This document shows, piece by piece, positions 4,535 through 22,745 of a stretch of 50,733 nucleotides of DNA (positions are counted from its first letter, which is position 1; each line of letters starts with the position of its first letter). Under the pieces are notes generated by a model. The model searched no databases. It was given only the letters and a program-made list of their open reading frames with translations, and was not told the origin of the DNA. This stretch comes from a virus, in IMG/VR virus record IMGVR_UViG_3300042922_000711, positions 1 to 50,733 of that record, one strand, 5' to 3'. Both the position numbers and the translations under genes were made by a program.

Positions 4535-4820
4535 GTTGAAAATTGAACAAAATACGCGGTTCAACTTGCGGTTCAAGTTAAAATATATCTTGAACCGCAT
4601 ATTTTATTGATATTTGAACATTTTCCATTTTGCGGTTCAAGTTCAACATTAAATTTCTATTATATATTATATTTTTGAAAAACATTAAATTTTAATGATT
4701 ATTTTCTTAATGCATTAAGAAATAGCATTTCATCTTGAACCATCTTGAACCGCGTTGCAATTACTACATTTCATCTTGAACTTTATCTTGAACCCAAGTT
4801 GAACTCATCTTGAACCAATC
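4535..4820. repeat. GGTTCAAGAT array, left copy
   Basis: Exact GGTTCAAG or CTTGAACC octamers lie at 4570, 4589, 4634, 4734, 4744, 4787 and 4809, with one-base variants at 4558 and 4775 and GTTGAACT at 4798. Neighbouring sites are often 10-12 bp apart. The array fills the int-immA gap and runs into the last codons of immA. It is a diverged inverted copy of 22420-22745: 4661-4700 matches the reverse complement of 22564-22603 at 39 of 40 bases, and 4627-4647 matches that of 22617-22637 at 20 of 21, with the same 13-nt gap between the blocks. A palindrome CATTAAATTTTAATG lies at 4683-4697. Confidence 0.9.
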
Positions 4821-5232
4821 TCAATCTAATTAATTTCTCATGACAACCAAATATCATTGATAATTGACAAATAGTATAGTCTTTATACTCGGCCAGCTCT
4901 TCATCACTTATTAAAAGATTTACAGCAAACTTATTGGCTTCAACCTCTAATTTATCAACGGATAAAAAGGTATTTTCTTTTAAAAAAGGTGTATTTGATT
5001 TTGGATGTAATAAAGCATGGCCGAGCTCATGAGCAGCAGTAAACATTTGCTTATGTTCAGGTAAATTCTCATTAATATGAATAAATTTCTGTCTGAATGC
5101 AGTGTTGTAATAACCATTAATACTTCCAAGATTTTCATATAGTACCATGATCCCGAGGTTATTAGCAATTTTAAGTGGATTTCTTGTTTCATGCTTTTTG
5201 ATTAATTTAGATATAATTGTCAATTCTGTCAT
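4783..5232 (-). CDS. immA: ImmA/IrrE-type metallo-protease
   Basis: The 149-aa protein carries the zinc-protease motif HELGH at residues 68-72 and a downstream Glu in VEANKFAVNLL (about 96-106), as in ImmA of ICEBs1 and IrrE-like proteins, which cleave or inactivate their cognate repressor on induction. It lies directly downstream of the CI-like repressor and reads the same way, the usual repressor-protease pair. Its last residues (VQDEFNLGSR) are encoded by the GGTTCAAG repeats, so the array has replaced or reshaped the 3' end. The repressor as substrate is inferred from context. Confidence 0.9.
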   Translation of the reverse strand: MTELTIISKLIKKHETRNPLKIANNLGIMVLYENLGSINGYYNTAFRQKFIHINENLPEHKQMFTAAHELGHALLHPKSNTPFLKENTFLSVDKLEVEANKFAVNLLISDEELAEYKDYTICQLSMIFGCHEKLIRLRLVQDEFNLGSR

Positions 5233-5254
5233 TATTCCCCCTAAAATAGTGTAT

Positions 5255-5710
5255 CTACATCTTATTTTTGTTTGGGTTATATTTACTCTTAGCGACTACT
5301 TTCGCTATTTTTATACTGTTCTCAATGCTGTCCTTTAACAACTCCCTGGTTTCATCGTCTAAAGCTTCTCCATCAAACATTAAAGCGTCCTGAAAGTTGT
5401 CAAGCTGCTCCAGCATGAAATTCATAGTTTTTGCAATATCCCTCTTATCTCTTTTTGAAAATTCTTCATTTCTTTTCACATCATTAGCAAGTTCCTGTTC
5501 ATTTGGAAGATTTCTAAATTCAGTATTTCCCAATAGCCAATCGATGGAAACATCAAAATACTCAGCAATTTTTTGAAGTATATCACCGCTTGGTGATGAT
5601 TTTACCCATTTGGACGTTGCACCATTTCCCAATTTAAGTTCACTTTCCAACCTTCTTTGTGAAATTCCCTTTTCTTTACATAGTGCTTTTACTCGTTCTA
5701 GTAAAGTCAT
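5255..5710 (-). CDS. CI-like phage repressor
   Basis: The 151-aa protein has an N-terminal XRE helix-turn-helix (about residues 5-60; SQRRLESELKLGNGATSKW, then LQKIAEYFDVSIDWLLG). The rest is charged and helical, with no LexA-type Ser-Lys protease domain, which fits inactivation by the neighbouring ImmA-type protease rather than self-cleavage. ATG at 5710 is chosen for AAGGAGG 7 nt upstream; an upstream in-frame ATG at 5752 lacks this. It faces the small HTH gene at 5945 across the operator region and most likely keeps prophage B silent. Confidence 0.88.
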   Translation of the reverse strand: MTLLERVKALCKEKGISQRRLESELKLGNGATSKWVKSSPSGDILQKIAEYFDVSIDWLLGNTEFRNLPNEQELANDVKRNEEFSKRDKRDIAKTMNFMLEQLDNFQDALMFDGEALDDETRELLKDSIENSIKIAKVVAKSKYNPNKNKM

Positions 5711-5758
5711 TGATTTTCCTCCTTTAAAAAATATATAGAAAATTTTCAGCAAAAACTA

Positions 5759-5786
5759 TTGACATGCAGAAAATATTCTGTATAAT
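5759..5786 (+). promoter_or_regulatory. Rightward early promoter
   Basis: TTGACA (5759-5764), a 16-bp spacer and TATAAT (5781-5786) form a consensus promoter that would drive the cro-like gene at 5945 and the early operon. The spacer is itself an operator copy, so repressor binding would block it. Confidence 0.75.
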
Positions 5787-5861
5787 AAAGGATAAGTACA
5801 GAAAATAATCAGCAGACAAAATGAAATGTGCAGAAAATATTCAATTAAGTGTGGTGCTTAT

Positions 5862-5890
5862 ATAATAGAATATTTTCAGTGAATTGTCAA
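5862..5890 (-). promoter_or_regulatory. Leftward repressor promoter
   Basis: On the minus strand TTGACA (5890-5885), a 17-bp spacer and TATTAT (5867-5862) form a strong promoter for the repressor at 5710. It points at the rightward promoter, so the two transcripts overlap by roughly 60-100 nt. Confidence 0.7.
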
Positions 5891-5944
5891 TATATCTGCT
5901 GAAAATTTTCCTTAAATTTAGAAAAAAGGAAGGAAGTGATCTAA

Positions 5945-6142
5945 TTGTATAAGAAAATCAAAGAATTGTGTCGAAACAAGGGAATTTCGATTTACCACTT
6001 AGAAAAGGTTTTGAAGCTTTCTACAGGAAGCATATGCAAGTGGGATAAGTCTGTACCAAGAGCAGATACGTTACAAAAAGTAGCGGAATATCTTGGAGTT
6101 CCGATCAGTTATCTTTTAGATGAAGATAAGCAGCACGATTAA
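5945..6142 (+). CDS. Cro-like HTH regulator
   Basis: This 65-aa protein is a single XRE helix-turn-helix (NKGISIYHLEKVLKLSTGSI, then TLQKVAEYLGVPISYLL), similar in pattern to the N-terminus of the divergent repressor. It is the first gene rightward of the switch region, the usual Cro position. The start is TTG, preceded by GGAAGGAAGTGAT. It probably competes for the same operators and promotes early expression; this role is inferred from position. Confidence 0.85.
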   Translation: MYKKIKELCRNKGISIYHLEKVLKLSTGSICKWDKSVPRADTLQKVAEYLGVPISYLLDEDKQHD

Positions 6143-6171
6143 ATGGTGAAGTCATAAGTGAAAGGTGGCGA

Positions 6172-6396
6172 GTGAAGAACTTGGAAGACGTATTATACAC
6201 AGTAACAGAAGTTTCAAAATTAATTAAATCAAATCCAGCGTATGTGTATGAGCTTATCAAAGCTGGTTTGCTTCCAGTCATTAAACTTGGCAGCTATAAA
6301 GTAAGAAAAACAGCATTACTGAGTTTTCTGGAAAAGTACGAAGGTAAGGACCTTACTGATCCAAGTAATGTTACGGACTTAAAAGTAGGTGATTAA
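6172..6396 (+). CDS. Excisionase-like / helix-turn-helix DNA-binding protein
   Basis: The 74-aa protein has a winged-helix pattern of the MerR/Xis type: YTVTEVSKLIKSNPAYVYELIKAGLLPVIKLGSYKVRKTALLSFLEKY. Such proteins bend DNA at att sites or act as small regulators. GTG at 6172 follows GAAAGGTGGCG; TTG at 6181 is an alternative. It is second in the early operon and its stop overlaps the start of the helicase gene. It could be the directionality factor for the integrase at 3283, though early regulators share this fold. Confidence 0.75.
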   Translation: MKNLEDVLYTVTEVSKLIKSNPAYVYELIKAGLLPVIKLGSYKVRKTALLSFLEKYEGKDLTDPSNVTDLKVGD

Positions 6397-7756
6397 AATA
6401 ACAGAATTAAAGTTATTCCCGCACCAGGAGAAGGCGCTGCAAACAACCAAAGATAAAAATCGTGTAGCTTACTATTTGGATATGGGCCTCGGTAAGACGT
6501 TTGTTGGCTCTGAAAAAGTAAAAGAACTCGGAAATAAAATGAACTTGCTGGTGTGTCAAAAATCAAAAATTGATGACTGGATAAATCATTTCAAAACTTA
6601 TTATTCAGATTATGACATTTGTGATTTGACTTCAAAAAATGGAATGAAAAGCTTTATGTCGTGTGACAGCATGGTTCAAAGTGGACGGTTCAAAATAATT
6701 GGTGTTATCAATTATGAATTAGCCTGGAGAAGACCGCAGCTGTTGAAGTTAAGTGACTATACGTTAATGTTGGATGAATCAAGCTTAATTCAGAATGACA
6801 GCACTAAGCAAACAAAATTCATTCTTCAATTAAATCCTGAAAATGTGATTTTGCTTTCCGGAACACCAACTTCAGGAAAATATGAAAACCTGTTAACACA
6901 GATGAGCTTGCTGGGATGGAGTATCAGTAAAGAACTTTATAACAAGCAATATGTAAATTGGACAAAAATTGATGTAGGCGGTTTTCCTTTAAAAATAGTT
7001 GATAAAGAAGATCCTTACAAGAATGTGGATCGGCTCAAACAAAAGTTGCGCAATCATGGGGCAGTATTCATGAAGACAGAAGAAGCGTTTGAACTTCCTG
7101 AACAAATTGTGGTTCCAATGATGATAAAGACATCTAAAGAATATAAAAAATTTGATAGAAAGTCTTACATAGTCTTTGACACCTGCAATCTACATGAATT
7201 TAAAGATGACAGCGATTTTGAAGGTAATGACATAACGCCGAGAATTGAATTGATTGGAGATACAACCTTTACAAAAAGATTGTACTCAAGGCAATTATGC
7301 GGCCAATACAGCAAAGACAAGTTGGAAGCGTTTGAAGATTTGGCATCGAGCACCCAGGATAGATTGATTGTTTTCTATAACTTCAATGATGAACTGGCAT
7401 CTCTCAGTAAAATCGCAAAGAAATTAGAAAGAGAAGTATCATTTGTGAATGGTTCAGGTAGGTCAATGTATGGTTATGAATATATTGATAACTCAATAAC
7501 ATTTGTTCAGTACCAGGCAGGAGCCATGGGATTGAACCTTCAGAAAGCGAATAAGATTATTTACTTTACGCTTCCGGAAAGGTCGGAGCTATTTGAACAA
7601 AGCAAGAAAAGGATCCACAGGATAGGCCAAGAAAAAACATGTTTTTATTACTTGATGATATGTAAAGACAGCGTGGAAGAAGACATCTATGAAAATCTAA
7701 AGATGAGGAGGGATTACACGGATGAACTATTCAAGGAATACGAGGAGAAGGCTTAA
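6389..7756 (+). CDS. SNF2/SWI2-type DEAD-like helicase
   Basis: The 455-aa protein has the ordered SF2 motifs: motif I MGLGKT (about residues 32-37), a motif II variant LDESS where DEAH-type proteins have DE.H, motif III LSGTP, and in the second RecA domain QAGAMGLNLQKA and RIHRIGQ. This pattern is typical of the short SNF2-like ATPases of Bacillota phages, usually found with a VRR-NUC nuclease (here 9457-9870) and thought to act in phage DNA replication or recombination. It starts with GTG, overlaps the gene before it, and its 3' end overlaps the 3D-domain gene. Confidence 0.9.
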   Translation: MIKITELKLFPHQEKALQTTKDKNRVAYYLDMGLGKTFVGSEKVKELGNKMNLLVCQKSKIDDWINHFKTYYSDYDICDLTSKNGMKSFMSCDSMVQSGRFKIIGVINYELAWRRPQLLKLSDYTLMLDESSLIQNDSTKQTKFILQLNPENVILLSGTPTSGKYENLLTQMSLLGWSISKELYNKQYVNWTKIDVGGFPLKIVDKEDPYKNVDRLKQKLRNHGAVFMKTEEAFELPEQIVVPMMIKTSKEYKKFDRKSYIVFDTCNLHEFKDDSDFEGNDITPRIELIGDTTFTKRLYSRQLCGQYSKDKLEAFEDLASSTQDRLIVFYNFNDELASLSKIAKKLEREVSFVNGSGRSMYGYEYIDNSITFVQYQAGAMGLNLQKANKIIYFTLPERSELFEQSKKRIHRIGQEKTCFYYLMICKDSVEEDIYENLKMRRDYTDELFKEYEEKA

Positions 7757-8300
7757 GTTCGAAAGAAACCTATTGATGTCAATGTTGATTGTTTGCCTGG
7801 TTGCTCTTGTAATAAGCGGCTTATCAGAAAAGAAAGCTTACGCTGAAGTTGAGAAATTAAAGACCGAAGTATTGCTGTTGGAAACGGACAACAATAATTT
7901 AGGAAGATGGAATGCGATTTTAGAAGTAGACAACGATATTATGGGCCGACGAATGAATCAATACGAAGAGATACTTCCATACATGTTTTTTTATGAGGGA
8001 GAGTTTGAGATCACATATTACACTTCTGGTCCAGAATCAACCGGTAAAACATCGAGTCACCCAGCGTATGGGGTAACTGCATCCGGAGCAAGTGTTAAAG
8101 AGGGACAAACTGTTGCTGCTGATTGGGATGTGCTTCCTCCAGGCACCAAAGTATTTATCGAAGGTGTTGGGATTAGAACTGTAGAAGACAAAGGCGGGCT
8201 GATAAAAGGAAATTGTATAGACGTCTATGTTGAGGATGTGGAAGTTGCTAGAGAACTAGGCAGACACAAAGCAACAGTCTATGTTTTAGAGGAAAATTAA
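7722..8300 (+). CDS. Membrane-anchored 3D-domain protein
   Basis: The 192-aa protein has a basic N-terminus, one membrane segment (about residues 18-36), a helical linker (about 40-75) and a C-terminal 3D domain with the conserved Asp pattern: Asp in EDKGG and Asp in CIDVYV. 3D domains share the MltA-type barrel and are mostly cell-wall-acting, probably on glycan strands. SD GAGGAGG precedes ATG. Its place inside the early operon, overlapping the helicase, is unusual for a wall enzyme; it might act at the envelope in early infection, but no role can be assigned. Confidence 0.82.
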   Translation: MNYSRNTRRRLKFERNLLMSMLIVCLVALVISGLSEKKAYAEVEKLKTEVLLLETDNNNLGRWNAILEVDNDIMGRRMNQYEEILPYMFFYEGEFEITYYTSGPESTGKTSSHPAYGVTASGASVKEGQTVAADWDVLPPGTKVFIEGVGIRTVEDKGGLIKGNCIDVYVEDVEVARELGRHKATVYVLEEN

Positions 8301-8321
8301 ACTTGTAAAGAGGAGGAAAAT

Positions 8322-8531
8322 ATGGACCAATATCAAAGTGAATATCACACGACAAACGGTAAGCAGAATTTTTACGTTGGTGAAAATATTGAGGTTGAGT
8401 TGAAGGATGGAAGCAGGGTTTCCGGGAAGGTGCAGTTCATAAGCGGAAGAGGTATTTACTTCCACACTGATGCAAAGAAACCGCTGTATTGCAGGAATGA
8501 TTCGATTAAGTTAATAGCAAGGTTAGGATGA
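8322..8531 (+). CDS. Small hypothetical protein, SH3/KOW-like pattern
   Basis: The 69-aa protein has the pattern ENIEVELKDGSRVSGKVQFISGRGIYFHT, suggestive of a small beta-barrel (Sm or SH3-like). SD AGAGGAGG is strong. No family was recognised. It is co-transcribed with the early genes. Confidence 0.7.
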   Translation: MDQYQSEYHTTNGKQNFYVGENIEVELKDGSRVSGKVQFISGRGIYFHTDAKKPLYCRNDSIKLIARLG

Positions 8532-8535
8532 TTGG

Positions 8536-8676
8536 ATGGACGTAATTTATAAAAATGAGGATAAAAAGTGTGAGTGCTGGAAATGCGAGCTAAAAAATAC
8601 TTGTCAGTACAAAGACAAGTATCAGAGACTTCCAAGAACTTCACCTGGTGCTTTAGGCTTATGTAAAAAACTATAA
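8536..8676 (+). CDS. 46-aa Cys-rich protein
   Basis: A short ORF starting at ATG 8536, 5 nt after the previous stop, encodes five cysteines (CECWKC and two more), suggesting a zinc or metal knuckle. It fits the gap between two early genes exactly. Function is unknown. Confidence 0.6.
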   Translation: MDVIYKNEDKKCECWKCELKNTCQYKDKYQRLPRTSPGALGLCKKL

Positions 8677-8697
8677 AAATTAAATAGGAGGCATTGA

Positions 8698-9156
8698 ATG
8701 TTTAAATGTACAATGGGCGGTTGCCCTCAAGGTAAAGACATTTGTTGCGTTAGCTGCAGCAAAAATAATTGTGAATCCAAATGCGAAGAAACCGATAACG
8801 TTTTAAGTTGTGGGTTTGCCAAAGAAATAATCGAAGAAGGTCAAACTGAAGTACAAATTTTTGAAAACCGGTATTTGCAAGTTTTCAAACAAGTAGCAGA
8901 CGTTACAAAAGCTAAAAAAGACCTGGAAGACCAAGAAAAGAAAGTTAAAGAGCAGCTCGAAAAAGCAATGAACGAGTACGGTATTGATTCTATTGACAAT
9001 CAATATTTAAAAATTACAAGAGTTAAAGCAAGTTCATCTGAATCAGTTGACCTAAAAAAGATGGAAGAAAAAGAACCACAGTTATACGCTGAGCTGCTTG
9101 CGGATTATAAAAAAGTTACAAATAAGAAAGCTTACTTGATGTTTAAGGTTAAATAA
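8698..9156 (+). CDS. Early phage protein with Cys-rich N-terminus and coiled coil
   Basis: The 152-aa protein starts with a Cys cluster (CTMGGCPQGKDICCVSCSKN) and continues into a long charged helix (about residues 60-95), then a beta-rich tail. SD AGGAGG is present. The C-terminal two thirds recall the helical, host-nuclease-inhibitor or Gp157-like proteins that sit beside recombination genes in Bacillota phages, but the match is not secure. It is followed at 1 nt by the next gene. Confidence 0.7.
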   Translation: MFKCTMGGCPQGKDICCVSCSKNNCESKCEETDNVLSCGFAKEIIEEGQTEVQIFENRYLQVFKQVADVTKAKKDLEDQEKKVKEQLEKAMNEYGIDSIDNQYLKITRVKASSSESVDLKKMEEKEPQLYAELLADYKKVTNKKAYLMFKVK

Positions 9157-9157
9157 T

Positions 9158-9457
9158 ATGAATAAAAAACTTATAAAAAAGATGATTAAGAAAAATCAAG
9201 CATTTGATGGCGTTATTTATGCAGATGGAAACAATGGTGGTGATATATTAGAAATTCACGACAACATGAACGGTACACTTCATCTTACTTCAGGTCATTG
9301 TTGCGTGATGACTATTAACAAAACTGTTCCAGTAGAATTTATAACTGCAATTTTATCAAAAGTGATGTTGGAAAATGATAATGATATTAATAAAGTTATT
9401 GATTCTTTCGATTGGCCAGAGCAGTTTAAACAGAAATTAAAGGATAAGGTTAAGTAA
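9158..9457 (+). CDS. Hypothetical early phage protein
   Basis: This 99-aa protein is basic at the N-terminus and shows no motif that I recognise. It fits between the preceding stop (1 nt gap) and the nuclease gene (1 nt overlap), which supports a real gene in a coupled operon. Confidence 0.7.
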   Translation: MNKKLIKKMIKKNQAFDGVIYADGNNGGDILEIHDNMNGTLHLTSGHCCVMTINKTVPVEFITAILSKVMLENDNDINKVIDSFDWPEQFKQKLKDKVK

Positions 9458-12881: not shown

Positions 12882-14582
12882 ATGTTATTCCTAGATTTTG
12901 AAGTATTTAAGCATGATTGGCTTGTTGTGATTGTTGACATGAACAAGAGACAAGAATATGTCATCATTAATGATCCTGAAGAATTAGAAAGAATTCACAA
13001 GCAGAATATAGACGACATTTGGGTTGGATTTAATATCAGACATTATGACCAATACATATTTAGAGGTATACTTTGTGGATTTGATCCGAAGAAAATTAAT
13101 GATTACATAATAGTACAAGGCAGGCCGGGTTGGAAATTTTCATCATTGTTCAAAAACATTAAACTAATAACTTATGACGTTATGCTGGGCAATGACAGAG
13201 GTTTAAAAGCGTTTGAGGGCTTTATGGGTAACAACATTAAAGAATCAAGTGTACCTTTCGATATAGACCGTAAATTGACTCCAGAAGAGATTGCAGAAAC
13301 AGTTAAGTATTGTCGGCATGACGTTGACCAACTCATTGAAGTGTTCATTGAAAGAAAAGAAGAGTTCGAAGCCACAAGAGAGTTGGTCAAGATTTTCAGA
13401 TTACCAATAGAATCATACGGTAAAACAAAGGCTCAGCTTGTAGCTGAAATATGTGGCGGCATGGGTAAGAGATTTGAAGATGATGAATTTGAATTCCCGG
13501 TTGTCCAATGTGTTCAAGAAAATTTGAAAAAATACAGATTTGTTCTTGAGTGGTATAGGAATCCTGAAAACCATGATTATACAAAAAGCCTTGACTGCAT
13601 AATTGCGGGTGTGCCCCACGTGTTTGGCTGGGGTGGAATACATGGAGCTGAAAAGAAAAACACGGTATTTGGTGACCTGCTGAACGTCGATGTTACAGCT
13701 TATTACCCGGCAATACAGTTGCGATATAAGTTTGGTTATAGAAATATGTCAAAGCCTGAGAACTTTGAAAAAATCCACAATGAGAACTTACGGCTGAAAG
13801 CTTCAGGCGATAAAAAGGCAAGATTACCTTTTAAGATTGCAGACAATAGTATATCCGGACAGCTCAAGGATCCAATGAGCAAACTGTTTGATCCACTGAT
13901 GAATAACGCGGTTTGCGTTAATGGACAATTAATGCTCCTGCTCCTGATTGAAATGATTGAACCACATGCGCAGCTCATTCAGTCAAATACAGATGGTATT
14001 CTGATGAAGCTGAATGACATTGATGATTACGGTTTGATTGATGATATCGTCTACGAATGGGAATGTTTGACCGGAATGAAAATGGAATTTGAACTGTTTA
14101 AGAAAGTGTTCCAGAAGGATGTTAATAATTACATTCTCATTGATGAAAAAGGAAAAGTTAAAACAAAAGGTGGATATGTTAAGAAGCTCAGCAAGATAGA
14201 TTATGATTTGCCAATTATCAACAAAGCGCTGGTTGAGTACATGGTTAATAACGTGCCGGTTGAGAAGACAATTAATGAATGTGATGACTTAAAAGAGTTT
14301 CAGTTGGTTTCAAAGATTACAAGTAAATATACTCACATACTGCACGGCGATAAAGTTTTAAAAGAGAAATGCATAAGAATATTTGCTTCAAAAGATAAAT
14401 CGGATGCAGGAGTTCAAAAGGTTCACGCCATAACCGGAAGACCGGCCAAGATATCAAACTCACCGTTAAGCTGCTTCATACACAATGATGAAGTCAATGG
14501 TGTAAAAGCGCCGAAGAAACTGGATAAGGAATGGTATATAAACATGGCAACAAAGAGATTACAAGATTTTGGGGTGATGTAA
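12882..14582 (+). CDS. Family B-like DNA polymerase with 3'-5' exonuclease
   Basis: The 566-aa polymerase is short, near the length of phi29-type enzymes. The exonuclease motifs are DFE (Exo I), NIRHYD (Exo II) and YCRHD (Exo III). Polymerase motif A is DVTAYYPAIQ, motif B KIADNSISGQ, and motif C SNTDGI, in which the first Asp of the usual DTD is Asn while the second, metal-binding Asp is kept. ATG at 12882 is chosen because TAGGTG lies 6 nt upstream; GTG 12873 is possible. No terminal-protein gene is seen, and a primase-helicase follows, so primer-dependent synthesis is likely. Its stop overlaps the next start (TAATG). Confidence 0.87.
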   Translation: MLFLDFEVFKHDWLVVIVDMNKRQEYVIINDPEELERIHKQNIDDIWVGFNIRHYDQYIFRGILCGFDPKKINDYIIVQGRPGWKFSSLFKNIKLITYDVMLGNDRGLKAFEGFMGNNIKESSVPFDIDRKLTPEEIAETVKYCRHDVDQLIEVFIERKEEFEATRELVKIFRLPIESYGKTKAQLVAEICGGMGKRFEDDEFEFPVVQCVQENLKKYRFVLEWYRNPENHDYTKSLDCIIAGVPHVFGWGGIHGAEKKNTVFGDLLNVDVTAYYPAIQLRYKFGYRNMSKPENFEKIHNENLRLKASGDKKARLPFKIADNSISGQLKDPMSKLFDPLMNNAVCVNGQLMLLLLIEMIEPHAQLIQSNTDGILMKLNDIDDYGLIDDIVYEWECLTGMKMEFELFKKVFQKDVNNYILIDEKGKVKTKGGYVKKLSKIDYDLPIINKALVEYMVNNVPVEKTINECDDLKEFQLVSKITSKYTHILHGDKVLKEKCIRIFASKDKSDAGVQKVHAITGRPAKISNSPLSCFIHNDEVNGVKAPKKLDKEWYINMATKRLQDFGVM

Positions 14583-14956
14583 TGAGCCTTATAGAAAAAT
14601 GCTGCAAGTACTGTCATCATTTTATAGATGGATCTTGCAGATTAAAAATCATTGCTGAAGCTGAATCAAATATTGATAACGTAATTGAAGATGGTTATTT
14701 AGCTGAAGCAGTCCAAGAAGGTTTTACGGACAAGGAATTTGACGAATTGGACTTAGCACTGCGCGGCTCAGGTCTAAGTGGTACAAAGATAAAAGAAGTA
14801 AAAAGAACATTTTACGATGAATTGGAAAGAATTAAAAATTTATGGATTGAAGATATTTCATACAACGTTGAAACAATGTTACAGAATAAGCTAGAAACTG
14901 AAATTAACTTCATTCCGAAAGACAAGGATGAATTTTATTGCAGATATTGGGAATGA
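14582..14956 (+). CDS. Cys-rich small phage protein
   Basis: The 124-aa protein has an N-terminal cluster (CCKYCHHFIDGSC) and a C-terminal Cys (FYCRYWE), a split metal-site pattern seen in small Bacillota phage proteins. The middle is helical and acidic. ATG overlaps the polymerase stop (TAATG), a sign of coupled translation; upstream in-frame ATGs lie inside the polymerase gene. Function unknown. Confidence 0.75.
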   Translation: MSLIEKCCKYCHHFIDGSCRLKIIAEAESNIDNVIEDGYLAEAVQEGFTDKEFDELDLALRGSGLSGTKIKEVKRTFYDELERIKNLWIEDISYNVETMLQNKLETEINFIPKDKDEFYCRYWE

Positions 14957-14971
14957 AGGCGGTGATAGAAA

Positions 14972-16861
14972 TTGTTTTTCAAGGGTTATGTAGAAACAAA
15001 AGATAAAAAATGCATTGAAAAATTTAAGAATAGAACTGACTTCAAGAATTATGAGCAAGTTAAATCATTACCTGAGTTCGCTGGAATACTTTACGCAGAT
15101 ACGATATTAATTGATATCGACGATGCGGAGCAGAGTGACATTTTGTTTAAGATAGTCAAAGACCTGAAGCTTAAATGCAGAGTTTACAAGACAACCAGGG
15201 GGAAGCATTTCTTATTTAAGAATAAAGGCGTAGAGACAAATAAAACAAAGACACCATTGGCGATAGGTATAACATCGGACATCAAGATTGGAGCAAGAAA
15301 TTCATATTCGGTTCTGAAGTTTGACAACAAGGAAAGAAAAATAATATATGACACGGCCAAGAATGAAGAAGCCCAGGACCTTCCAAAATGGTTATTACCC
15401 ATAAGAACAAAAATGGACTTCTTGAACATGGAAGCAGGTGACGGAAGAAACCAGTCATTATTCAATTATATTTTGACACTACAAAGTAATGATTTCAGCG
15501 TAGAAGAATCCAGGGAATGTATTCGTATTATCAATCAACATGTGTTGAAAACACCATTAAGTGAGTCGGAGCTTGAGATAATACTGAGAGACGATGCGTT
15601 TGCAAAACCTGTATTCTTTAAAGGTACAGCTTTTCTGTTTGATAAGTTCGCAACGTATTTGAAGAATAATAATCACATACTGAAGATTAATAATCAGCTG
15701 CACCTTTACAGAGACGGAATATATGAGAATGGTCAAGAAGAAATTGAATGCGAAATGATTAAGCACATTCCAAACTTAAACAGAACTAAACGGTCGGAGG
15801 TAATGGCGTATTTGAACATTATGATTAGGCACAACACACCAGCTACGACAGCAAACTTAATAGCATTCAGAAACGGTGTTTACAACATAACTGATGATTC
15901 GTTTAGTGAATTTAAGCCGGAACACATAATCACGAATAAGATTGACTGGGATTATAACTCAAACACATATTCAGAGCTTGTTGATAAAACTTTGGACAAG
16001 ATAGCATGTAAGGATCCTGATGTTCGAATGCTGCTGGAAGAGGTAATCGGTTATTGTTTTTACAGGAGAAATGAGCTCGGCAAAGCGTTCATACTGATAG
16101 GTGATAAGTCAAATGGTAAATCGACATTCCTGGACATGGTTAAGACGCTGCTGGGAGAAAACAACATTGCAGCACTGGACCTTAAGGAGCTTGGAGACAG
16201 ATTTAAAACAGCTGAACTTTTCGGAAAGCTGGCCAACATCGGTGATGATATTGGTGATGAGTTTATAGCGAATGCAGCAGTATTTAAAAAGCTTGTTACT
16301 GGGGACAGATTGAACGTTGAAAGAAAAGGACAGAATCCATTTGATTTTAACAATTATTCTAAGATGTTATTTTCGGCCAACAACATTCCAAGAATTAAGG
16401 ACAAGACCGGCGCAGTACTCAGGAGATTAACCATCATACCTTTTGACGCTAAGTTCTCAGTTGATGATCCTGATTACAGACCATATATCAAATATGAATT
16501 AAGGGACCAGGAGTGCATGGAGTATTTAATCCTTCTTGGTATCAAAGGCTTAAAAAGGATACTTGCCAATCAGAAGTTTACACAGTCAACCAGGGTTGAA
16601 AGAGAGCTACAGGAGTACGAAGAAACAAACAATCCTGTTGTTGGATTCCTTAAGGATACGGATGAAGATGAGATTGATAATGAGCCAACAAAAAATGTTT
16701 ACAAGAAGTACCAGGAGTATTGTGTAGCAAATAATCTTCAACCTGTATCGCATATTGAATTTTCAAAACAGATTAACAGGATATTGAACCTTGAAATAGT
16801 GGACAAGAAGATAGATGGCAAAAAGTTCAGAATCTTCATAAAGAAAGAAGAGGAAGCATGA
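14972..16861 (+). CDS. Bifunctional primase / SF3 helicase (D5-type)
   Basis: The 629-aa protein joins an N-terminal AEP-type primase domain (about residues 1-160; IDIDD acidic pair, His in TTRGKHFLF, basic IKIGARN) to a C-terminal D5/SF3 helicase with Walker A GDKSNGKST (about residues 377-385), a Walker B-like NIGDDIGDE and sensor SANNIP. It would open the origin and prime for the neighbouring polymerase. The start is TTG after AGGCGGTGAT. It is the main candidate replication initiator of prophage B. The 3' end overlaps the next gene by 4 nt. Confidence 0.9.
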   Translation: MFFKGYVETKDKKCIEKFKNRTDFKNYEQVKSLPEFAGILYADTILIDIDDAEQSDILFKIVKDLKLKCRVYKTTRGKHFLFKNKGVETNKTKTPLAIGITSDIKIGARNSYSVLKFDNKERKIIYDTAKNEEAQDLPKWLLPIRTKMDFLNMEAGDGRNQSLFNYILTLQSNDFSVEESRECIRIINQHVLKTPLSESELEIILRDDAFAKPVFFKGTAFLFDKFATYLKNNNHILKINNQLHLYRDGIYENGQEEIECEMIKHIPNLNRTKRSEVMAYLNIMIRHNTPATTANLIAFRNGVYNITDDSFSEFKPEHIITNKIDWDYNSNTYSELVDKTLDKIACKDPDVRMLLEEVIGYCFYRRNELGKAFILIGDKSNGKSTFLDMVKTLLGENNIAALDLKELGDRFKTAELFGKLANIGDDIGDEFIANAAVFKKLVTGDRLNVERKGQNPFDFNNYSKMLFSANNIPRIKDKTGAVLRRLTIIPFDAKFSVDDPDYRPYIKYELRDQECMEYLILLGIKGLKRILANQKFTQSTRVERELQEYEETNNPVVGFLKDTDEDEIDNEPTKNVYKKYQEYCVANNLQPVSHIEFSKQINRILNLEIVDKKIDGKKFRIFIKKEEEA

Positions 16862-17049: not shown

Positions 17050-17058
17050 GAGGTTCCG

Positions 17059-17256
17059 ATGAAAAAGTATGTTGTAGAAATGAGTTATATTTTAGGAGTA
17101 ACTTTAAATGTGAAAGCAGAAAACAAAGAGTATGCGATAGAAAAGGCAAAGGAAATTGTTAGAAATGATATTACTGTTATTGATACAGGTTGCGACATCG
17201 AAGATGTTGGGGATATAGAGTTTGAACAAGTTAACTTTGTAAAAGAGGTGAAATAA
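17059..17256 (+). CDS. Hypothetical protein, 65 aa
   Basis: SD AGGAGG is strong. The sequence has an alternating beta pattern followed by a helix (NKEYAIEKAKEIV), like small DpnD/PcfM-type phage proteins, but the assignment is not secure. Confidence 0.65.
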   Translation: MKKYVVEMSYILGVTLNVKAENKEYAIEKAKEIVRNDITVIDTGCDIEDVGDIEFEQVNFVKEVK

Positions 17257-17257
17257 G

Positions 17258-17839
17258 ATGGAAAAAGCTTTTATCATATCAAAAGACAGTAAGTATCACA
17301 AGGACTTAGATAATTACATTGAGTTATGTAATCAGCAGAAGGATTTTATAAATAAGTATTTCGGTGAAAAAGGAATTGAAGCCAACACATATAGAATTAG
17401 TGGGAACGGCAGTGTAAACTCACCATTTGAAGACTGGGAAAAAGATGAAATAAGTCTTAGCATTGGAGCTACAAATAATGATTCAACCAAGTTCGGAAAA
17501 GCACTTTGTAAGAAAAATGAGCATGGATTATGCAGTTTTAACAAAAAGTCTGAAATAAGTAAGGATTTTGCAAAGAGATGTATTGAAGAAAAAGTTGTCA
17601 TAAATTTATGGGAACCGAGGATATCAAATTATTTTGAAAGTATCAGCTTTAGAGGGTGCCGTTATCACAGAATCATTCATCAGGACATAATGTACATGAA
17701 AATCGATAGCAATCACCTGGATGATAAAGAAGTTCCGGACGGATTTACAGAAATTAAACTAAGTGAATTTTACACCAAGTTAGAAGAATATAACGAATCT
17801 ACGAAGGGGGATAACGATGAAAGTAAAAATAATAAATAA
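17258..17839 (+). CDS. Hypothetical protein, 193 aa
   Basis: It begins 1 nt after the previous stop with SD AGAGGTG. The protein is mixed and charged and ends in an Asp/Glu/Lys-rich tail. Its last 23 nt overlap the dUTPase gene. No family recognised. Confidence 0.68.
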   Translation: MEKAFIISKDSKYHKDLDNYIELCNQQKDFINKYFGEKGIEANTYRISGNGSVNSPFEDWEKDEISLSIGATNNDSTKFGKALCKKNEHGLCSFNKKSEISKDFAKRCIEEKVVINLWEPRISNYFESISFRGCRYHRIIHQDIMYMKIDSNHLDDKEVPDGFTEIKLSEFYTKLEEYNESTKGDNDESKNNK

Positions 17840-18248
17840 TAGCGGTTTTCCGCTTCCAAAATATGAGACACCTGGTGCAGCTGGATTTGACATAAAAGCT
17901 TCGATAAAAAATGAGGATGTAATCAAGCCCAGGGAAACTGTAATTGTGCCAACTGGTTTATATGTGGCCATACCGCAAGGTTATGAGCTTCAGATAAGAG
18001 GTAGAAGTGGATTAGCAATGAAATATGCTATAGGTATTACGCATGGCGTGGGCACTGTGGATTCGGATTATAGAGGTGAAATAAAAATCTTTTTAACAAA
18101 TCATGGAGCTTTACCTTTTGAAATAAAACCAGGCGACAGAATAGCCCAAGGGATAATTGCTCCAGTAATTCAGGCCGAATGGGAAGAAGTTGAAACACTT
18201 GATGAAACAAAGAGAGGAGCTGGTGGATTTGGAAGCACAGGAAAATAA
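17817..18248 (+). CDS. dut: dUTP diphosphatase
   Basis: The 143-aa trimeric-type dUTPase has all five motifs: GAAGFDIKA (I), GRSGLA (II), GTVDSDYRG (III), PGDRIAQGI (IV) and RGAGGFGSTG (V). It hydrolyses dUTP to dUMP and pyrophosphate, keeping uracil out of phage DNA. SD GGGGGAT precedes ATG inside the previous gene. Some phage dUTPases also act as derepressors of mobile islands; nothing here shows that. Confidence 0.96.
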   Translation: MKVKIINNSGFPLPKYETPGAAGFDIKASIKNEDVIKPRETVIVPTGLYVAIPQGYELQIRGRSGLAMKYAIGITHGVGTVDSDYRGEIKIFLTNHGALPFEIKPGDRIAQGIIAPVIQAEWEEVETLDETKRGAGGFGSTGK

Positions 18249-18534
18249 AGCTATTGAGATAATTAACGATGTCACATGGCAAGATGGTGGTAGGCATTAT
18301 GGCGAAGTTGAAGAAGCTAGACGGTTAGCCATATCGGCACTTGAAAAGCAGATACCTAAAAACCCTATTAAGAAAGAAGAGCAGTATAAAAAAATAACAG
18401 TTGAGATTTATTATTGTCCAATTTGTAATGAAGAGGTTAGCAGGCGGTCAAAGTCTTCGTATTTATGCAAAACACCATATTGCGATGAATGTGGTCAAAA
18501 AATAGATTGGTCGGAGGCTCAAAATGCAGAATGA
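18229..18534 (+). CDS. Small phage protein with C-terminal zinc ribbon
   Basis: The approximately 101-aa protein has an N-terminal helical part (ARRLAISALEKQ) and a zinc ribbon (CPICNEE...CDECGQKIDW). This architecture is common in Bacillota phage early regions and has no known role. The start is uncertain: TTG 18229 with GGAG 9 nt upstream is preferred; GTG 18223 and ATG 18190 are in frame inside dut. Its end overlaps the next gene. Confidence 0.72.
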   Translation: MEAQENKAIEIINDVTWQDGGRHYGEVEEARRLAISALEKQIPKNPIKKEEQYKKITVEIYYCPICNEEVSRRSKSSYLCKTPYCDECGQKIDWSEAQNAE

Positions 18535-18829
18535 TCAGTTTACTGAAGTAGTTCAAGAGCAAATAACAAGATGTTTAACAACGTTAGATTGTAAAAACAA
18601 TGAGTACGGAACAGAAGACAGATTACATAATTTTAAAGTTGCAGCAGTTCTCCAGGATGTTATACCAACTCAAGCCCTGGCAGGCATGATGGCGAAGCAC
18701 ACGGTTAGTGTTTATGATATGTGCCGGGACGGAAGCAGAGATTTAGCATTATGGAATGAGAAAATAACCGACAATATTAATTACTTATTGCTGCTCAGGG
18801 CGTTGGTTGAAGAGGAAGGAGTGGATTAA
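18524..18829 (+). CDS. DUF1599-like (Nmad1-type) protein
   Basis: The 101-aa protein has the pattern KNNEYGTEDRLHNFKVAA, then ALAGMMAKHTVSVYDM and a helical end, matching small phage DUF1599 proteins, which have been linked by comparative genomics to nucleotide modification. No activity has been shown for this type as far as I know. It overlaps the preceding gene by 11 nt. Confidence 0.75.
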   Translation: MQNDQFTEVVQEQITRCLTTLDCKNNEYGTEDRLHNFKVAAVLQDVIPTQALAGMMAKHTVSVYDMCRDGSRDLALWNEKITDNINYLLLLRALVEEEGVD

Positions 18830-18831
18830 GC

Positions 18832-19062
18832 GTGAAAAATACATTAGGGGATTTGAATAATCATTTGTTTGCTCAACTTGAGCGTCTCGGGGATGAGGAT
18901 CTAAAAGGTGAAGCTCTTAAAGAAGAAATGGATAGAGCTAAATCAATTGGCTATGTGGCCAAGCAGATTATAGATAACGCATCTTTAGTTTTAGAAGCGC
19001 AAAAGATGATGGATGATAAAATGAACGCCGATTTAAAATTGCCTAAGATGTTGGAGGGATAG
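18832..19062 (+). CDS. Conserved small phage protein, 76 aa
   Basis: A helical protein starting MKNTLGDLNNHLFAQLERL, a pattern I recall from many Bacillota phages between nucleotide-metabolism genes. It has no known function. GTG start, 2 nt after the previous stop, with SD GAAGGAG. Confidence 0.72.
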   Translation: MKNTLGDLNNHLFAQLERLGDEDLKGEALKEEMDRAKSIGYVAKQIIDNASLVLEAQKMMDDKMNADLKLPKMLEG

Positions 19063-19065
19063 AAA

Positions 19066-19665
19066 TTGCATTTCTACACAACAAATGAAATCGAGTATCT
19101 TAGAGAAATTACGCCAAGAAGAACGAACAAAGAAATCACTGAAATGTTCAATAAGAAATTCAATTTGAATTTATCCAGAAAAGCTATCTCCGGAACTAGG
19201 AAAAGATTTGGATTCTTAACAGGTTCAGATGGGCGTTTCGAAAAAGGTCACGTACCCGCCAACAAAGGATCTAAAGGGCTCTGGAAAGGTGGTGAGAAAA
19301 CTCAATTTGCTAAAGGTCATAAACCTCACAACTGGGTACCGATTGGATCCGAGAGAATAACCAAAGACAATTACATCCAAGTCAAGATTCAAGAGGGTAA
19401 ATTTCAAAAGAACTGGAAAGGTAAGCATATCTTAATCTGGGAAGAGCATAACGGTCCGGTACCGCCGGGCCACGGTGTAATATTTGGGGATGGGAACAAT
19501 CGTAATTTTAATATTGATAATTTAATTCTAGTTTCCAGGCACCAGCTATTAGAATTAAATAGAAATAATCTCATTCAAAAGGATGCTGACCTGACGAGAA
19601 CTGCTTTATTAATAACAGACTTAAACATAAAAATGAATGCGCGAAAAAAGAAGGCGGTGAAGTGA
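19066..19665 (+). CDS. HNH endonuclease (phage, homing-type)
   Basis: The 199-aa protein has an N-terminal HTH-like part (about residues 5-50), a linker with KGH.P repeats (EKGHVP, AKGHKP), and a C-terminal HNH nuclease core (HILIWEEHNGPVPPGHGVIF, then NRNFNIDNL). This is the usual layout of free-standing phage HNH enzymes, many of which are homing endonucleases. TTG start after GGAGGG. It lies in a run of small genes and may be a late insertion; no intron was seen. Confidence 0.88.
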   Translation: MHFYTTNEIEYLREITPRRTNKEITEMFNKKFNLNLSRKAISGTRKRFGFLTGSDGRFEKGHVPANKGSKGLWKGGEKTQFAKGHKPHNWVPIGSERITKDNYIQVKIQEGKFQKNWKGKHILIWEEHNGPVPPGHGVIFGDGNNRNFNIDNLILVSRHQLLELNRNNLIQKDADLTRTALLITDLNIKMNARKKKAVK

Positions 19666-19832
19666 TGAAATATTGCAGATTTACCAATGATGAATGTATC
19701 TTTAAAGATACTGATATTGATTGCAAAAGGTGTGCCTGGCGTGTTGATACCTGTATAATGTGCGGTGAAGTTATTCCTGAAGGTAGACAAGTTTGTATCA
19801 ATTGTGAAGAGAAGGTGAAAAATGGCAAATAA
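19665..19832 (+). CDS. 55-aa Cys-rich zinc-ribbon protein
   Basis: A short ORF in the gap between two early genes. It overlaps the HNH gene stop by 1 nt, has SD AAGGCGGTG, and encodes CKRC, CIMC and CINC pairs (eight cysteines in all). It overlaps the next start by 11 nt. Probably a zinc-binding early protein. Confidence 0.65.
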   Translation: MKYCRFTNDECIFKDTDIDCKRCAWRVDTCIMCGEVIPEGRQVCINCEEKVKNGK

Positions 19833-20034
19833 GAATCCAAGACTTAATGACAGCGGATTACCTGATCCAACGGCATATGAAGCATTAAAGCCGATAATCA
19901 AGAACGATAATGACGTGGATAAAACAGCGCACAGCTTGATTAATACTTTGAAGTTTATTGTTGACTGGGCCGGGTTCGAGTTCATCGGAAGAATAAGAGT
20001 TAAACATAAGAAAACAGGAAGGGAATTCAAATAA
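19822..20034 (+). CDS. Conserved small phage protein, 70 aa
   Basis: The sequence NPRLNDSGLPDPTAYEAL recalls a small protein common in Bacillota phages. SD GAAGGTG is present, and its stop overlaps the next start. Function unknown. Confidence 0.7.
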   Translation: MANKNPRLNDSGLPDPTAYEALKPIIKNDNDVDKTAHSLINTLKFIVDWAGFEFIGRIRVKHKKTGREFK

Positions 20035-20216
20035 TGAAAAAACTGATAGAAGAATTCCTCATAATATGCGGTTTGTGTGTAGTAGTTTTAATATTCTGGC
20101 AAAGGCTAGAATTGTCAACGATGGGTGAAATAACATACAGAAAAGTGGATGACATAATAGCTTCAATTTTAACTTTCTCGTTGTATATAAATCTCAAAAA
20201 TTGGAAAAGGGGATAA
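20034..20216 (+). CDS. Small membrane protein, 60 aa
   Basis: Two hydrophobic segments (about residues 8-22 and 42-54) flank a polar stretch. It is coupled to the gene before it by a 1-nt overlap. No family recognised. Confidence 0.65.
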   Translation: MKKLIEEFLIICGLCVVVLIFWQRLELSTMGEITYRKVDDIIASILTFSLYINLKNWKRG

Positions 20217-20223
20217 GAGGATT

Positions 20224-20754
20224 ATGGAAGAAAGATTTGAAAAGTTTGAAGGTTTGATGGGAAATAAAGTAACAGATAAATTCAAGGAATGGCTCATTGA
20301 AAATGGTTTTTTCACAGCTCCAGCTTCGGCAGGACATCATGGAGCATATGAGGGCGGATTGTTTGACCACTCTTACGCGGTAACTGAAACCTTGGTCAAG
20401 CTAACAAAGGATTTGAACTTACACTGGAATGTTCCAAGCTCACCTTATATTGTGGGAATGTTTCATGACTTATGTAAAATAGACGCATATAAACGTAAGT
20501 TATTCCCACTCAATAGTAGCGAGTTTGAGTATAACAAAGATGTTTTACTTCCTGGCCATGGTGAGAAATCAATAATATATCTTCAACAGCAAATGACCAT
20601 CACCGAAGAAGAGATAATGTGTATCAGGTGGCACATGGGGGCATTTGACGATAAAGAAAACTGGAAGTATTACTCAGCAGCTGTCAACAAATATCCAAAT
20701 GTTTTATATACTCACACTGCTGATATGATTGCTTCACAGATCCTGGGAGTTTAA
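20224..20754 (+). CDS. HD-domain phosphohydrolase
   Basis: The 176-aa protein has the HD-type metal residues: DHS near residue 49, FHDLCK at 80-85, PGHGEKS (about 111-117), RWHMG and a later Asp in HTADMI. HD proteins hydrolyse phosphomono- or diesters, often nucleotides. Together with dut and the PP-loop gene that follows, it suggests nucleotide-pool or modification chemistry in the early operon. The substrate is unknown. Confidence 0.87.
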   Translation: MEERFEKFEGLMGNKVTDKFKEWLIENGFFTAPASAGHHGAYEGGLFDHSYAVTETLVKLTKDLNLHWNVPSSPYIVGMFHDLCKIDAYKRKLFPLNSSEFEYNKDVLLPGHGEKSIIYLQQQMTITEEEIMCIRWHMGAFDDKENWKYYSAAVNKYPNVLYTHTADMIASQILGV

Positions 20755-20759
20755 AGCAA

Positions 20760-21593
20760 GTGAAGATATTAAGTTGCGGGGCAGGAATGCAGTCAACAGC
20801 GTTGGCGTTGATGTCGTGCGAGAATAAATCAAAAGGAAATATTCATCCACTTGTTCCAATCTATGATGCAATTATATTTTGCGATCTCGGGAAAGAACCA
20901 CCTTGGGTTTATGACCAGGTCAAATTCATAATGAATGCATGTGACGCGGTTGGAATTCCATTCTATATTTTGGACACCCATCTTTATGATGATTATGTCG
21001 ATAATTTTGGAAAGAACAGAGTGGTTTCAATACCATTTTGGACAGTTGATGAAGATGGAAAGAAAGGAAAGATGATGCGAAACTGCACATTGGATTATAA
21101 AATTAATGCTATTCAGAAGTTTGTGAAACATGAACTGTTGGGTTACAAGAAGTATGAAAGAATTAAGCCACACGATATTAAAGCACATGAAATGCACATT
21201 GGTTTCAGCGTGGAAGAAAAAAGCAGGTGTAGCGAAAACCCACATAAAATGTTCGTTAATAAATTTCCATTGATTGAGCTTCAACATGAACGAAAACATA
21301 ACTTTGCATACATCAAGGATGTTTGGGGATTAGAAACAAAAGCAAGTGCTTGTAACATTTGTCCGTTTCATAGGAATTATTTCTTCAAACATCTAAAAGA
21401 GAATCATCCGAAAGAGTATCAAGAAGTTATTAAACTGGATCATATCCTTGAAGAAAGACAGCCTGATACAAAAATTAGAAGTAAACTTTATATTTCGAGA
21501 TCAAGAAAGAGAATCAAAGATTTGACAGATGAAGAATGTAATGATGTAGAGACATTTCTTTACAAAGAGCAAATAATTTGGAATGGATTTTGA
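20760..21593 (+). CDS. PP-loop ATPase (PAPS-reductase-like)
   Basis: The 277-aa protein begins with a PP-loop signature (SCGAGMQSTALA, about residues 5-16) and carries NCTLDYKINAIQKF and a CNICPFH Cys pair, as in phage and Dnd-type relatives of PAPS reductase. These enzymes activate a substrate by adenylation; roles include sulfur transfer and base modification. It starts with GTG 5 nt after the HD gene. Whether it modifies DNA, tRNA or a small molecule is not visible here. Confidence 0.82.
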   Translation: MKILSCGAGMQSTALALMSCENKSKGNIHPLVPIYDAIIFCDLGKEPPWVYDQVKFIMNACDAVGIPFYILDTHLYDDYVDNFGKNRVVSIPFWTVDEDGKKGKMMRNCTLDYKINAIQKFVKHELLGYKKYERIKPHDIKAHEMHIGFSVEEKSRCSENPHKMFVNKFPLIELQHERKHNFAYIKDVWGLETKASACNICPFHRNYFFKHLKENHPKEYQEVIKLDHILEERQPDTKIRSKLYISRSRKRIKDLTDEECNDVETFLYKEQIIWNGF

Positions 21594-21609
21594 TAAGGGG
21601 AGTGTAATT

Positions 21610-21726
21610 ATGAAAAAGCTTAAATATTATTACCAATGCGCGAAGTGGTTGTGGAAGAACAGAAATTGGACGGGCTCCAGACAGAAGTACAGAGCAATGG
21701 AAAGGGAGTTGAAGAAGTATGAATAA
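21610..21726 (+). CDS. 38-aa basic peptide
   Basis: A short ORF with SD GGGGAGTG, rich in Lys, Tyr and Trp (YYYQCAKWLWKNRNW). It overlaps the next start by 8 nt, which supports translation. Function unknown. Confidence 0.55.
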   Translation: MKKLKYYYQCAKWLWKNRNWTGSRQKYRAMERELKKYE

Positions 21727-21931
21727 CAGTGTAGTGTGCGTGCCAAGTAAATCAGTTAAATATTTAGAAAATATAATGCTTGTAAATGAGATGCTGCGTG
21801 AAAGCGTTGAGAAACAAAACACATATAGAGCGTTCAACAAGCTTAAAAAACGCACCGTTAAAAAGTCAGCTAACCCTAAAAAGAAGGCCAAGAGGAAAAT
21901 TAAGCAAGCAAGTCAGAAAAGGAATAGGTGA
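21719..21931 (+). CDS. Small very basic protein, 70 aa
   Basis: The C-terminal half is nearly all Lys and Arg (KKRTVKKSANPKKKAKRKIK), suggesting nucleic-acid binding. It overlaps the previous ORF. No family recognised. Confidence 0.6.
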   Translation: MNNSVVCVPSKSVKYLENIMLVNEMLRESVEKQNTYRAFNKLKKRTVKKSANPKKKAKRKIKQASQKRNR

Positions 21932-21935
21932 CACC

Positions 21936-22217
21936 ATGACGCGTGAAGACATAATAAGCATTATAAGGCAGGCAATGGACCTTCTTGACCTAAGAGTCAA
22001 AGGAAGAGTGATAATAACACCTTGCGCAGTTGGTGATTACATCAGGACAAAATACGACGATGAAGTTTTAAGAGTTGACGGATTCACAACATATGGTGAT
22101 GACTTAAAAGTTTGGTGCGAAGGTGAAAGCGAAAATGAAGATTATACAGAATTTGAGCTTAGTGAAATAACAGAATTTATTCCAAGGGAGAAATATAATG
22201 AAACCAATAAGAACTAA
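21936..22217 (+). CDS. Hypothetical protein, 93 aa
   Basis: The chosen ATG follows GGAATAGGTG; upstream in-frame ATGs overlap the previous gene. The protein is acidic toward the C-terminus. Its end overlaps the next gene by 20 nt. Confidence 0.68.
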   Translation: MTREDIISIIRQAMDLLDLRVKGRVIITPCAVGDYIRTKYDDEVLRVDGFTTYGDDLKVWCEGESENEDYTEFELSEITEFIPREKYNETNKN

Positions 22218-22464
22218 TACAGCAAACAGGACTTACACCGGGGAAGGCTGCATACCATTACCAGCTACAGCGATACAATACAGTGATGGAAAGGTAGGGG
22301 TAGAGACGTGCTTTGAACTCACAGATGAGGAATTGGAGCAGGTGCAGAAGTCAAAGCACATATATGTAACCTTTGCCGGACAGTCAATTATACCGTTTAT
22401 GGTGCATACCGAAACTCACACAGCGGTTCAAGATGAGTTCAAGATGGTTCAAGATGAAAAATAG
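22198..22464 (+). CDS. Conserved early phage protein, 88 aa, 3' end made of repeats
   Basis: SD AGGGAGA precedes ATG. The body (TYTGEGCIPLPATAIQYSDGKVGVETCFELT) recalls a small conserved Bacillota phage protein without known function. The last 12 residues (VQDEFKMVQDEK) are encoded by three GGTTCAAGAT-type repeats, so the gene runs into the right array. The immA product ends in the same VQDEF for the same reason. Confidence 0.7.
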   Translation: MKPIRTNTANRTYTGEGCIPLPATAIQYSDGKVGVETCFELTDEELEQVQKSKHIYVTFAGQSIIPFMVHTETHTAVQDEFKMVQDEK

Positions 22465-22745
22465 TCATCTTGAACCGGTTCAAACGAAGTAGCAGTAATG
22501 GTTGTGTGTCTCGGGTTCAAGATGGTTCAAGATACTTTTGAGTTCTTTATATATAGGGTGTAAAATCATTAAAATTTAATGATTTTCAAAAATATAATAT
22601 ATAGTATAAAAACTAAGTTGAACTTGAACTGCAAAATTTAACAATCAGCAAGCATATTGAAATTTAAACAAAATTAGCGGTTCAAGATTAAGTTTAAAAA
22701 TAGGGTTGATCTTGAACCCATCTTGAACCAAGTTGAACCTGTTGA
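22420..22745. repeat. GGTTCAAGAT array, right copy (inverted)
   Basis: Exact GGTTCAAG or CTTGAACC octamers lie at 22425, 22446, 22469, 22514, 22524, 22679, 22711 and 22722, with variants at 22436, 22477, 22623 and 22732. The order and spacing mirror the left array, including the pair 10 bp apart (22514/22524 against 4734/4744), the palindrome CATTAAAATTTAATG (22567-22581) and the shared 40-bp block (22564-22603). It covers the 3' end of the preceding gene and the space up to the ArpU-like gene. Confidence 0.9.

Follow-up and report, generated by a model that had tools for sequence, protein, structure and literature searches.

Two arrays of the iteron GGTTCAAGAT lie 17.9 kb apart in the window (the whole stretch of DNA analysed, an IMG/VR virus record of 50,733 bp), a left array (L) between the integrase gene (int) and the ImmA/repressor genes and a right array (R) at the early/late junction. 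The data as a whole are best explained if both arrays are replication origins of the SaPI/PICI type that are read by the wing of the phage primase-helicase, with R as the primary origin and L as a second site, and we consider this very likely. This explanation draws on features computed from the genomes: the architecture of the arrays, their paired occurrence in related phages, the iteron common to both arrays of a genome, the covariation of the iteron with the wing, and the homology of the primase-helicase to that of SaPI5. Physical binding, melting, origin firing, assembly of a double ring and a division of labour between L and R are what these features would predict.

Position and architecture of the two arrays

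The arrays, their cores and the neighbouring genes in the window are as follows.

4540..4816, no strand: left array (L), A+T-rich core flanked by 12-13 copies or near-copies of GGTTCAAGAT; int on one side, the ImmA/repressor genes on the other
4650..4731, no strand: A+T-rich core of L, a putative DNA unwinding element; best 60-bp stretch 92% A+T, top 0.1% of the record
22425..22739, no strand: right array (R), A+T-rich core with 13 copies or near-copies of GGTTCAAGAT arranged as a dyad, at the early/late junction
22534..22614, no strand: A+T-rich core of R; best 60-bp stretch 88% A+T, top 0.2%
3283..4518, minus strand: tyrosine integrase (int), pointing outward from L
4783..5232, minus strand: ImmA/IrrE-type metallopeptidase (Peptidase_M78)
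5255..5752, minus strand: CI-type HTH repressor
22723..23349, plus strand: phrog_36/sigma-like (ArpU-type) late regulator, pointing outward from R; the likely real start is the ATG at 22783

The number of sites per array (12-13) includes degenerate copies within 4540-4816 and 22425-22739. The right end of L overlaps the 3' end of immA, and R begins 5.56 kb downstream of the primase stop codon. The exact octamer GGTTCAAG/CTTGAACC occurs 7 times in 4530-4830, 8 times in 22400-22760 and only 4 times in the remaining ~50 kb, placing 15 of the 19 copies in the whole window inside the two arrays. With up to one mismatch allowed, GGTTCAAGAT has 26 matches, compared with 3.98 ± 2.16 in 100 dinucleotide shuffles, none of which reached 26. 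The two arrays and the octamer counts given for them in the original prediction are thus reproduced, far above the shuffled background. In a BLASTN search with L as the query, R was matched on the opposite strand at 73% over 185 nt (E 5e-27). This alignment of L with the reverse complement of R bears out the earlier description of the arrays as diverged inverted copies, and the two blocks named there were recovered exactly: 4661-4700 matches the reverse complement of 22564-22603 at 39 of 40 bases, and 4627-4647 that of 22617-22637 at 20 of 21. The longer block is part of the A+T-rich core and contains no iterons.

Each array is a dyad of about 12 sites, with the ideal order >>><>>, A+T-rich core, <<><<<. 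The dyad is near-perfect in well-preserved relatives, with spacings of about 10, 11, 20, 46 and 10 bp on either side and an A+T-rich centre of ~95-115 bp. The cores of L and R belong to the top 0.6% A+T of their own genome in all 28 phages with paired arrays, and nearly all of them to the top 0.2%. A palindrome or near-palindrome, GTTGAAATTTCAAC, stands at the outer edge of both arrays in the window (4535-4550 and 22741-22754).

The window contains terminase, portal, capsid, sheath and tape-measure-like genes. A comparison of 2801-3300 with the sequence right of 42 kb gave no att core of at least 14 bp. Two similar XerC-like tyrosine recombinases (1961-2962 and 46404-47432) are located one on either side of the prophage, and cell-wall hydrolase genes lie beside them at both window ends, as if similar elements stood in tandem. 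ARAGORN placed a tRNA-Asp (anticodon ATC) at 47531-47619, inside a minus-strand ORF (47486-47908); it is probably spurious.

Paired arrays in related phages

A scan for two adjacent sites returned many contigs with two arrays, and the whole contigs were fetched. For each genome, a motif model was learned only from the array downstream of the primase gene (R) and then used to scan the same contig. In each of 28 IMG/VR phages, all of which encode a related P4-family primase-helicase, these R-only models detect one additional main array, close to the beginning of the early region and by the lysogeny genes. Column-shuffled models gave 1 cluster in 920 scans. One contig (G022) was left out of the pair count, its single array having been split by the gap threshold. 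The distance from L to R through the early region is 13.4-20.4 kb in the 28 phages.

The iteron differs between phages. Variants include GGTTCAAG, TGTTCAAG, AATTCAAG, GGTTACGG, TGTTACGG, GGTAACGG, GGTAGCGG, TGTAACGG, TGTGACGC and TGTTCCGC, among others, and phages with iterons as different as TGTTACGG, GGTAGCGG, TGTGACGC and TGTAACGG are found among those with paired arrays. Within one genome, L and R carry the same genome-specific iteron; therefore, one protein serves both arrays. The original prediction of a cis element shared through one protein is supported to this extent, but nothing ties the arrays to int or the late regulator.

The inverted orientation of the pair aligns better in 20 of the 28 phages (in two of them marginally) and the direct orientation in 7, with a tie in 1. 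Inversion is common, not obligatory, so the mirrored arrays expected in related phages recur as pairs, though not always as mirror images. The early/late-junction array is near-universal, whereas the lysogeny-side array is frequent but not universal: it is absent in three relatives (G042, G046 and G065) and in the named Paenibacillus phage Wanderer, where the primase-side array alone is present. R is thus the more basic of the two, and its occurrence without L in these natural cases disfavours a strict need for both arrays. An R-type array is found 34-212 bp 3' of the primase gene in L322, L333, L327, L056 and G042, and up to 7 kb from it in other relatives.

The position of L between int and the immA/repressor genes, together with its loss from some relatives in which R persists, would fit an alternative with R as the only origin. 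L would then serve regulation, with the same initiator repressing or timing the int and repressor genes from there and so coupling excision or lysogeny to replication. However, L too is a dyad built like that of R, with an extreme A+T-rich core of its own (top 0.1% of the window), and a repressor site needs no melting element. L is also kept in phages such as G005 and G009 without an int homologue found nearby. We regard the regulatory role for L as unlikely, and prefer to view L as a second site of the origin type.

The arrays are also present in relatives with tail, portal, int or regulator genes that show no detectable relationship, and R persists in G034 and G048 despite different portal and other late genes. 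At the DNA level, the R array showed no similarity to named phages. A scan of a genome collection with the paired pattern returned mostly unrelated tandem repeats and a few matches in Firmicutes and MAGs, of which L230, L260, L274, L290 and L291 look like true arrays. Many relatives carry a different tandem array, with units of ~15 nt (AACAGCGGT or AACAGTGGT), a short way upstream of their SNF2 helicase gene; it was not seen in the window. Examples are:

G001, 26438-26606: tandem array of ~15-nt units
G002, 1-319: tandem array of ~15-nt units
G009, 13228-13410: tandem array of ~15-nt units
G014, 5088-5405: tandem array of ~15-nt units

Covariation of the primase-helicase wing with the iteron

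The proposed initiator and the parts of it discussed below are encoded as follows.

14972..16861, plus strand: P4-family primase-helicase, proposed initiator for both arrays (D5_N, DUF5906, Pox_D5; phrog_864; TIGR01613)
16688..16858, plus strand: C-terminal winged helix of the primase-helicase, residues 573-629, from AlphaFold2 models
16802..16804, plus strand: codon of Asp611; residue 611 is compared with iteron base 4
16808..16810, plus strand: codon of the wing residue Lys613, the position that matches iteron base 1

The protein scores 216.5 bits against TIGR01613, the P4 primase family, with a cut-off of 108.7. Its only sequence relative among solved structures is the SaPI5 primase-helicase (7ola; hmmsearch E 5e-59), which is also the best fold match of the full model. 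In the AlphaFold2 models the wing is formed by strands 607-614 and 617-624, and residue 613 is located in the first of them. The nearest solved folds of the winged helix are RFX DNA-binding domains and Orc1/Cdc6 on origin DNA, both weak matches (E about 0.05-0.3). RFX DNA-binding domains read DNA with the wing.

The natural variation of the iteron was compared with that of the protein in 73 unique primases with a clear array, in 64 of which the first iteron base is unambiguous. Two phages (G027 and L327) were left out of the statistics, since their automatic iteron register was wrong; by eye both fit the rule that emerged. Residue 613 and iteron base 1 agree in 64 of 64 primases without exception: Lys with G in 44, Arg with T in 17, and Thr or Phe with A in 3. 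The window is of the K613 type, and contig G023 is an example of the R613 type. The normalised mutual information of residue 613 with base 1 is 0.96, and that of the next primase column is 0.19. A tree was built from residues 1-540 only, leaving the winged helix out, and on it residue 613 and base 1 each changed 12 times independently. Residue 611 pairs with base 4, where all 38 scored cases with Asp have T and all 7 with Gln have A, and it also ranks with the best columns for base 5. How far the C-terminus of the primase had diverged overall did not predict the iteron; the signal sits in a few wing residues.

The rule was then fixed and applied to 36 new unique primases from two further scans, 20 of which have an array. 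It was right in all 16 scorable cases and wrong in none; the other 4 carry Trp613, which is outside the rule. It therefore holds in 80 of 80 scorable related phages (64 plus the 16 new ones). Two of the four Trp613 primases (L457, L478, L505 and L518) have iterons that begin with C (CATTCAAGAT and CnTTCAACAT), while the other two are not clearly registered. Pairing of Trp613 with C is a possible fourth entry of the residue-base code. In a distant Staphylococcus epidermidis prophage (44% identity), iterons of the TGTCTTATG type lie on the 3' side of the primase, and a manual alignment of the wing puts an Arg at the place of residue 613. No description of a wing residue that corresponds almost one to one with an iteron base was found in the literature searched, and we know of none.

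Since residue 613 tracks base 1, and no other primase column or tested phage protein comes close, the reader of both arrays is very probably the primase-helicase. The covariation strongly supports recognition of the iterons by its C-terminal domain. The best columns of seven other proteins (SNF2, polymerase, SSB, AAA_24, ArpU, portal and tail protein; int was left out) reach only 0.15-0.39. These data bear on the earlier suggestion that one protein sets both excision and late timing at the arrays, which we abandoned: arrays are found without a detectably related int or regulator, and the iteron co-varies with the primase-helicase and with none of the seven others. In its general form, a transcription regulator, either a late activator or a repressor, would act on both arrays and time int and the late genes together, as might be expected from their location upstream of outward-reading genes in the window. 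Base 1, however, tracks one primase residue perfectly, and the best ArpU column reaches 0.33 (n=20). R also persists beside different late genes in G034 and G048, and the CI/Cro operator region (5752-5945) contains no GGTTCAAGAT site. Such a regulator is very improbable. Control of the late regulator or the integrase was rejected as the reason for the arrays, as the iteron tracks the primase wing only, among the proteins scored, and a CI-type operator or stoperator was rejected for want of a matching site in the CI/Cro region. Clusters of short repeats at two places could also be partition (centromere) sites for a ParB-like protein, but the iteron follows the primase-helicase wing, and no ParA/ParB-like protein was found among the window proteins that were profile-searched (some small early ORFs lay outside the search). 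We give partition almost no credence.

One contig counts against the primase-helicase as the reader. G043 (L190) is 26 kb long and contains no P4-family primase, yet it carries an orphan GGTTCAAGAT array. It encodes a DUF927/HTH_56 helicase replicase (SCCmec Cch1-like) with its own AGGTAAG iteron array 3' of that gene. The palindrome GTTGAAATTTCAAC also stands at the edge of this DUF927-type array.

G043, 14945-15220: AGGTAAG array 3' of the replicase gene
G043, 5190-5422: orphan GGTTCAAGAT array beside the repressor

The orphan array could be a passenger, a decoy, or a site to borrow the initiator of another phage.

Candidate origins and related replicons

The homology of the initiator to the SaPI5 primase-helicase and the architecture of the arrays suggest that each array is a replication origin of the SaPI/PICI type. 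Of the alternatives offered in the original prediction, paired replication sites is the one that gained support, from the shared iterons, the A+T-rich cores and the SaPI5-like initiator. In the proposed mechanism, the primase-helicase would bind both arrays through its C-terminal winged helix, with the wing reading the iteron and Lys613 contacting or selecting the G at iteron base 1. The self-loading helicase would form two head-to-head rings, on the two sets of iterons, to melt the A+T-rich core and then prime DNA synthesis. At the end of the early operon, R would be the near-universal primary origin; L, beside the lysogeny module, would be a frequent second site for the same protein, either another origin or a partner of R in replication control or as a fork barrier.

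SaPI Rep recognises iterons 3' of its gene through its C-terminal domain and appears to bind as two hexamers (PMC7581432), and PICI origins consist of two iteron sets around an A+T-rich stretch (PMC6092414). The phages described here share with these elements a homologous primase-helicase and two iteron sets flanking an A+T-rich stretch (PMC6092414, PMC7581432), and the C-terminal DNA-binding domain of their initiator, homologous to SaPI Rep, is modelled as a winged helix. The SaPI origin is directly 3' of rep; R is 5.56 kb downstream in the window and 34-212 bp downstream in some relatives. SaPIs and PICIs are helper-dependent satellites without a full structural set, whereas the window phage and its relatives are full-size temperate phages with terminase, portal and tail genes. 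In addition, the phages here usually have two such origins, 13-20 kb apart. SCCmec Cch2, an SCC relative of SaPI5 Rep, is similar in that its C-terminal domain, on its own, binds repeats lying 3' of the gene (PMC7581432). The Cch2/Cch systems differ in belonging to chromosomal cassettes, and their putative origin is one short site with three 5-nt iterons.

Two separate cis regions with the same iterons, combined with a P4-family primase-helicase, are also a feature of the P4 replicon. Phage P4 is an 11.6-kb satellite of enterobacteria, and its alpha protein acts with ori and crr, which share iterons, are about 4.5 kb apart and are not mirror copies. Its cis regions are thus closer together and not mirrored, and the phages here are not satellites; their system is at most a relative of the P4 replicon. 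With ori and crr in mind, the earlier statement that no described system has such a layout was too strong. The same is true in view of phage SPP1, which has two origins (oriL/oriR) ~13 kb apart in the circularised genome, both bound by gp38 (PMC6316719). SPP1 resembles the phages here in having two loci of repeats and A+T-rich DNA and, if the primase-helicase binds as proposed, one phage origin-binding protein (PMC6316719). It differs in using gp38, a loader and a DnaB-type helicase; it has no winged-helix-tailed primase-helicase fusion and no homologous initiator. Among the window proteins that were profile-searched, no gp38, no loader and no DnaB-type helicase was found. The literature searched describes no paired iteron origins for this type of phage.

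The reason for having two arrays could be two working origins, an origin with a helper site, or an origin with a fork barrier that starts concatemers. Stalling at oriR has been proposed to start concatemers in SPP1 (PMC6316719). By analogy, one array would fire and the other would block the fork, switching replication from theta to concatemer. The ~13 kb between the gp38-bound SPP1 origins compares with 13.4-20.4 kb here (PMC6316719). GC skew at four-fold sites falls across R from +0.23 to +0.06 (28 related contigs) and is higher in early than in late genes in 23 of the 28 phages. This step at R would fit forks running mostly rightward from L. Against a firing and a blocking array, R is the more conserved of the two and adjoins the initiator gene in relatives, and we find this arrangement possible but somewhat unlikely. 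The skew step could come from the direction of the forks or from the class of the genes. It gives no support to R as the sole bidirectional origin, and as the skew falls there we dropped it as evidence for an origin at R.

A wider proposal is that a large, undescribed group of full-size temperate phages has a two-origin replicon of the SaPI type. For firing or control, the two arrays would have to cooperate through one primase-helicase. The residue 613 code, with nearly one residue per base, would be K-G, R-T, T/F/N-A and perhaps W-C, so that the origin would be predictable from the protein and the two arrays would evolve in concert. We hold this proposal tentatively, leaning slightly against all of it being right. 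To our knowledge, few temperate phages have a known origin. In these phages, the origin, its reader and one specificity-setting residue may be readable from sequence across a whole phage group, with a rule that held on new scorable cases. A doubled SaPI-type origin with a homologous initiator in full-size phages would link satellites and phages, and prompts the question of whether the two compete at one another's origins. Binding tests could start from the natural K-type and R-type primase variants, and with the paired layout the reason for keeping two origins in some phages becomes open to test.

Directly 3' of the gene for an unrelated P4-type primase of 827 aa (L199, contig G032), at 6318-6574, ATGAGTT iterons form a 5+5 dyad of their own. 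Iteron dyads 3' of the gene may be general for P4-family primases.
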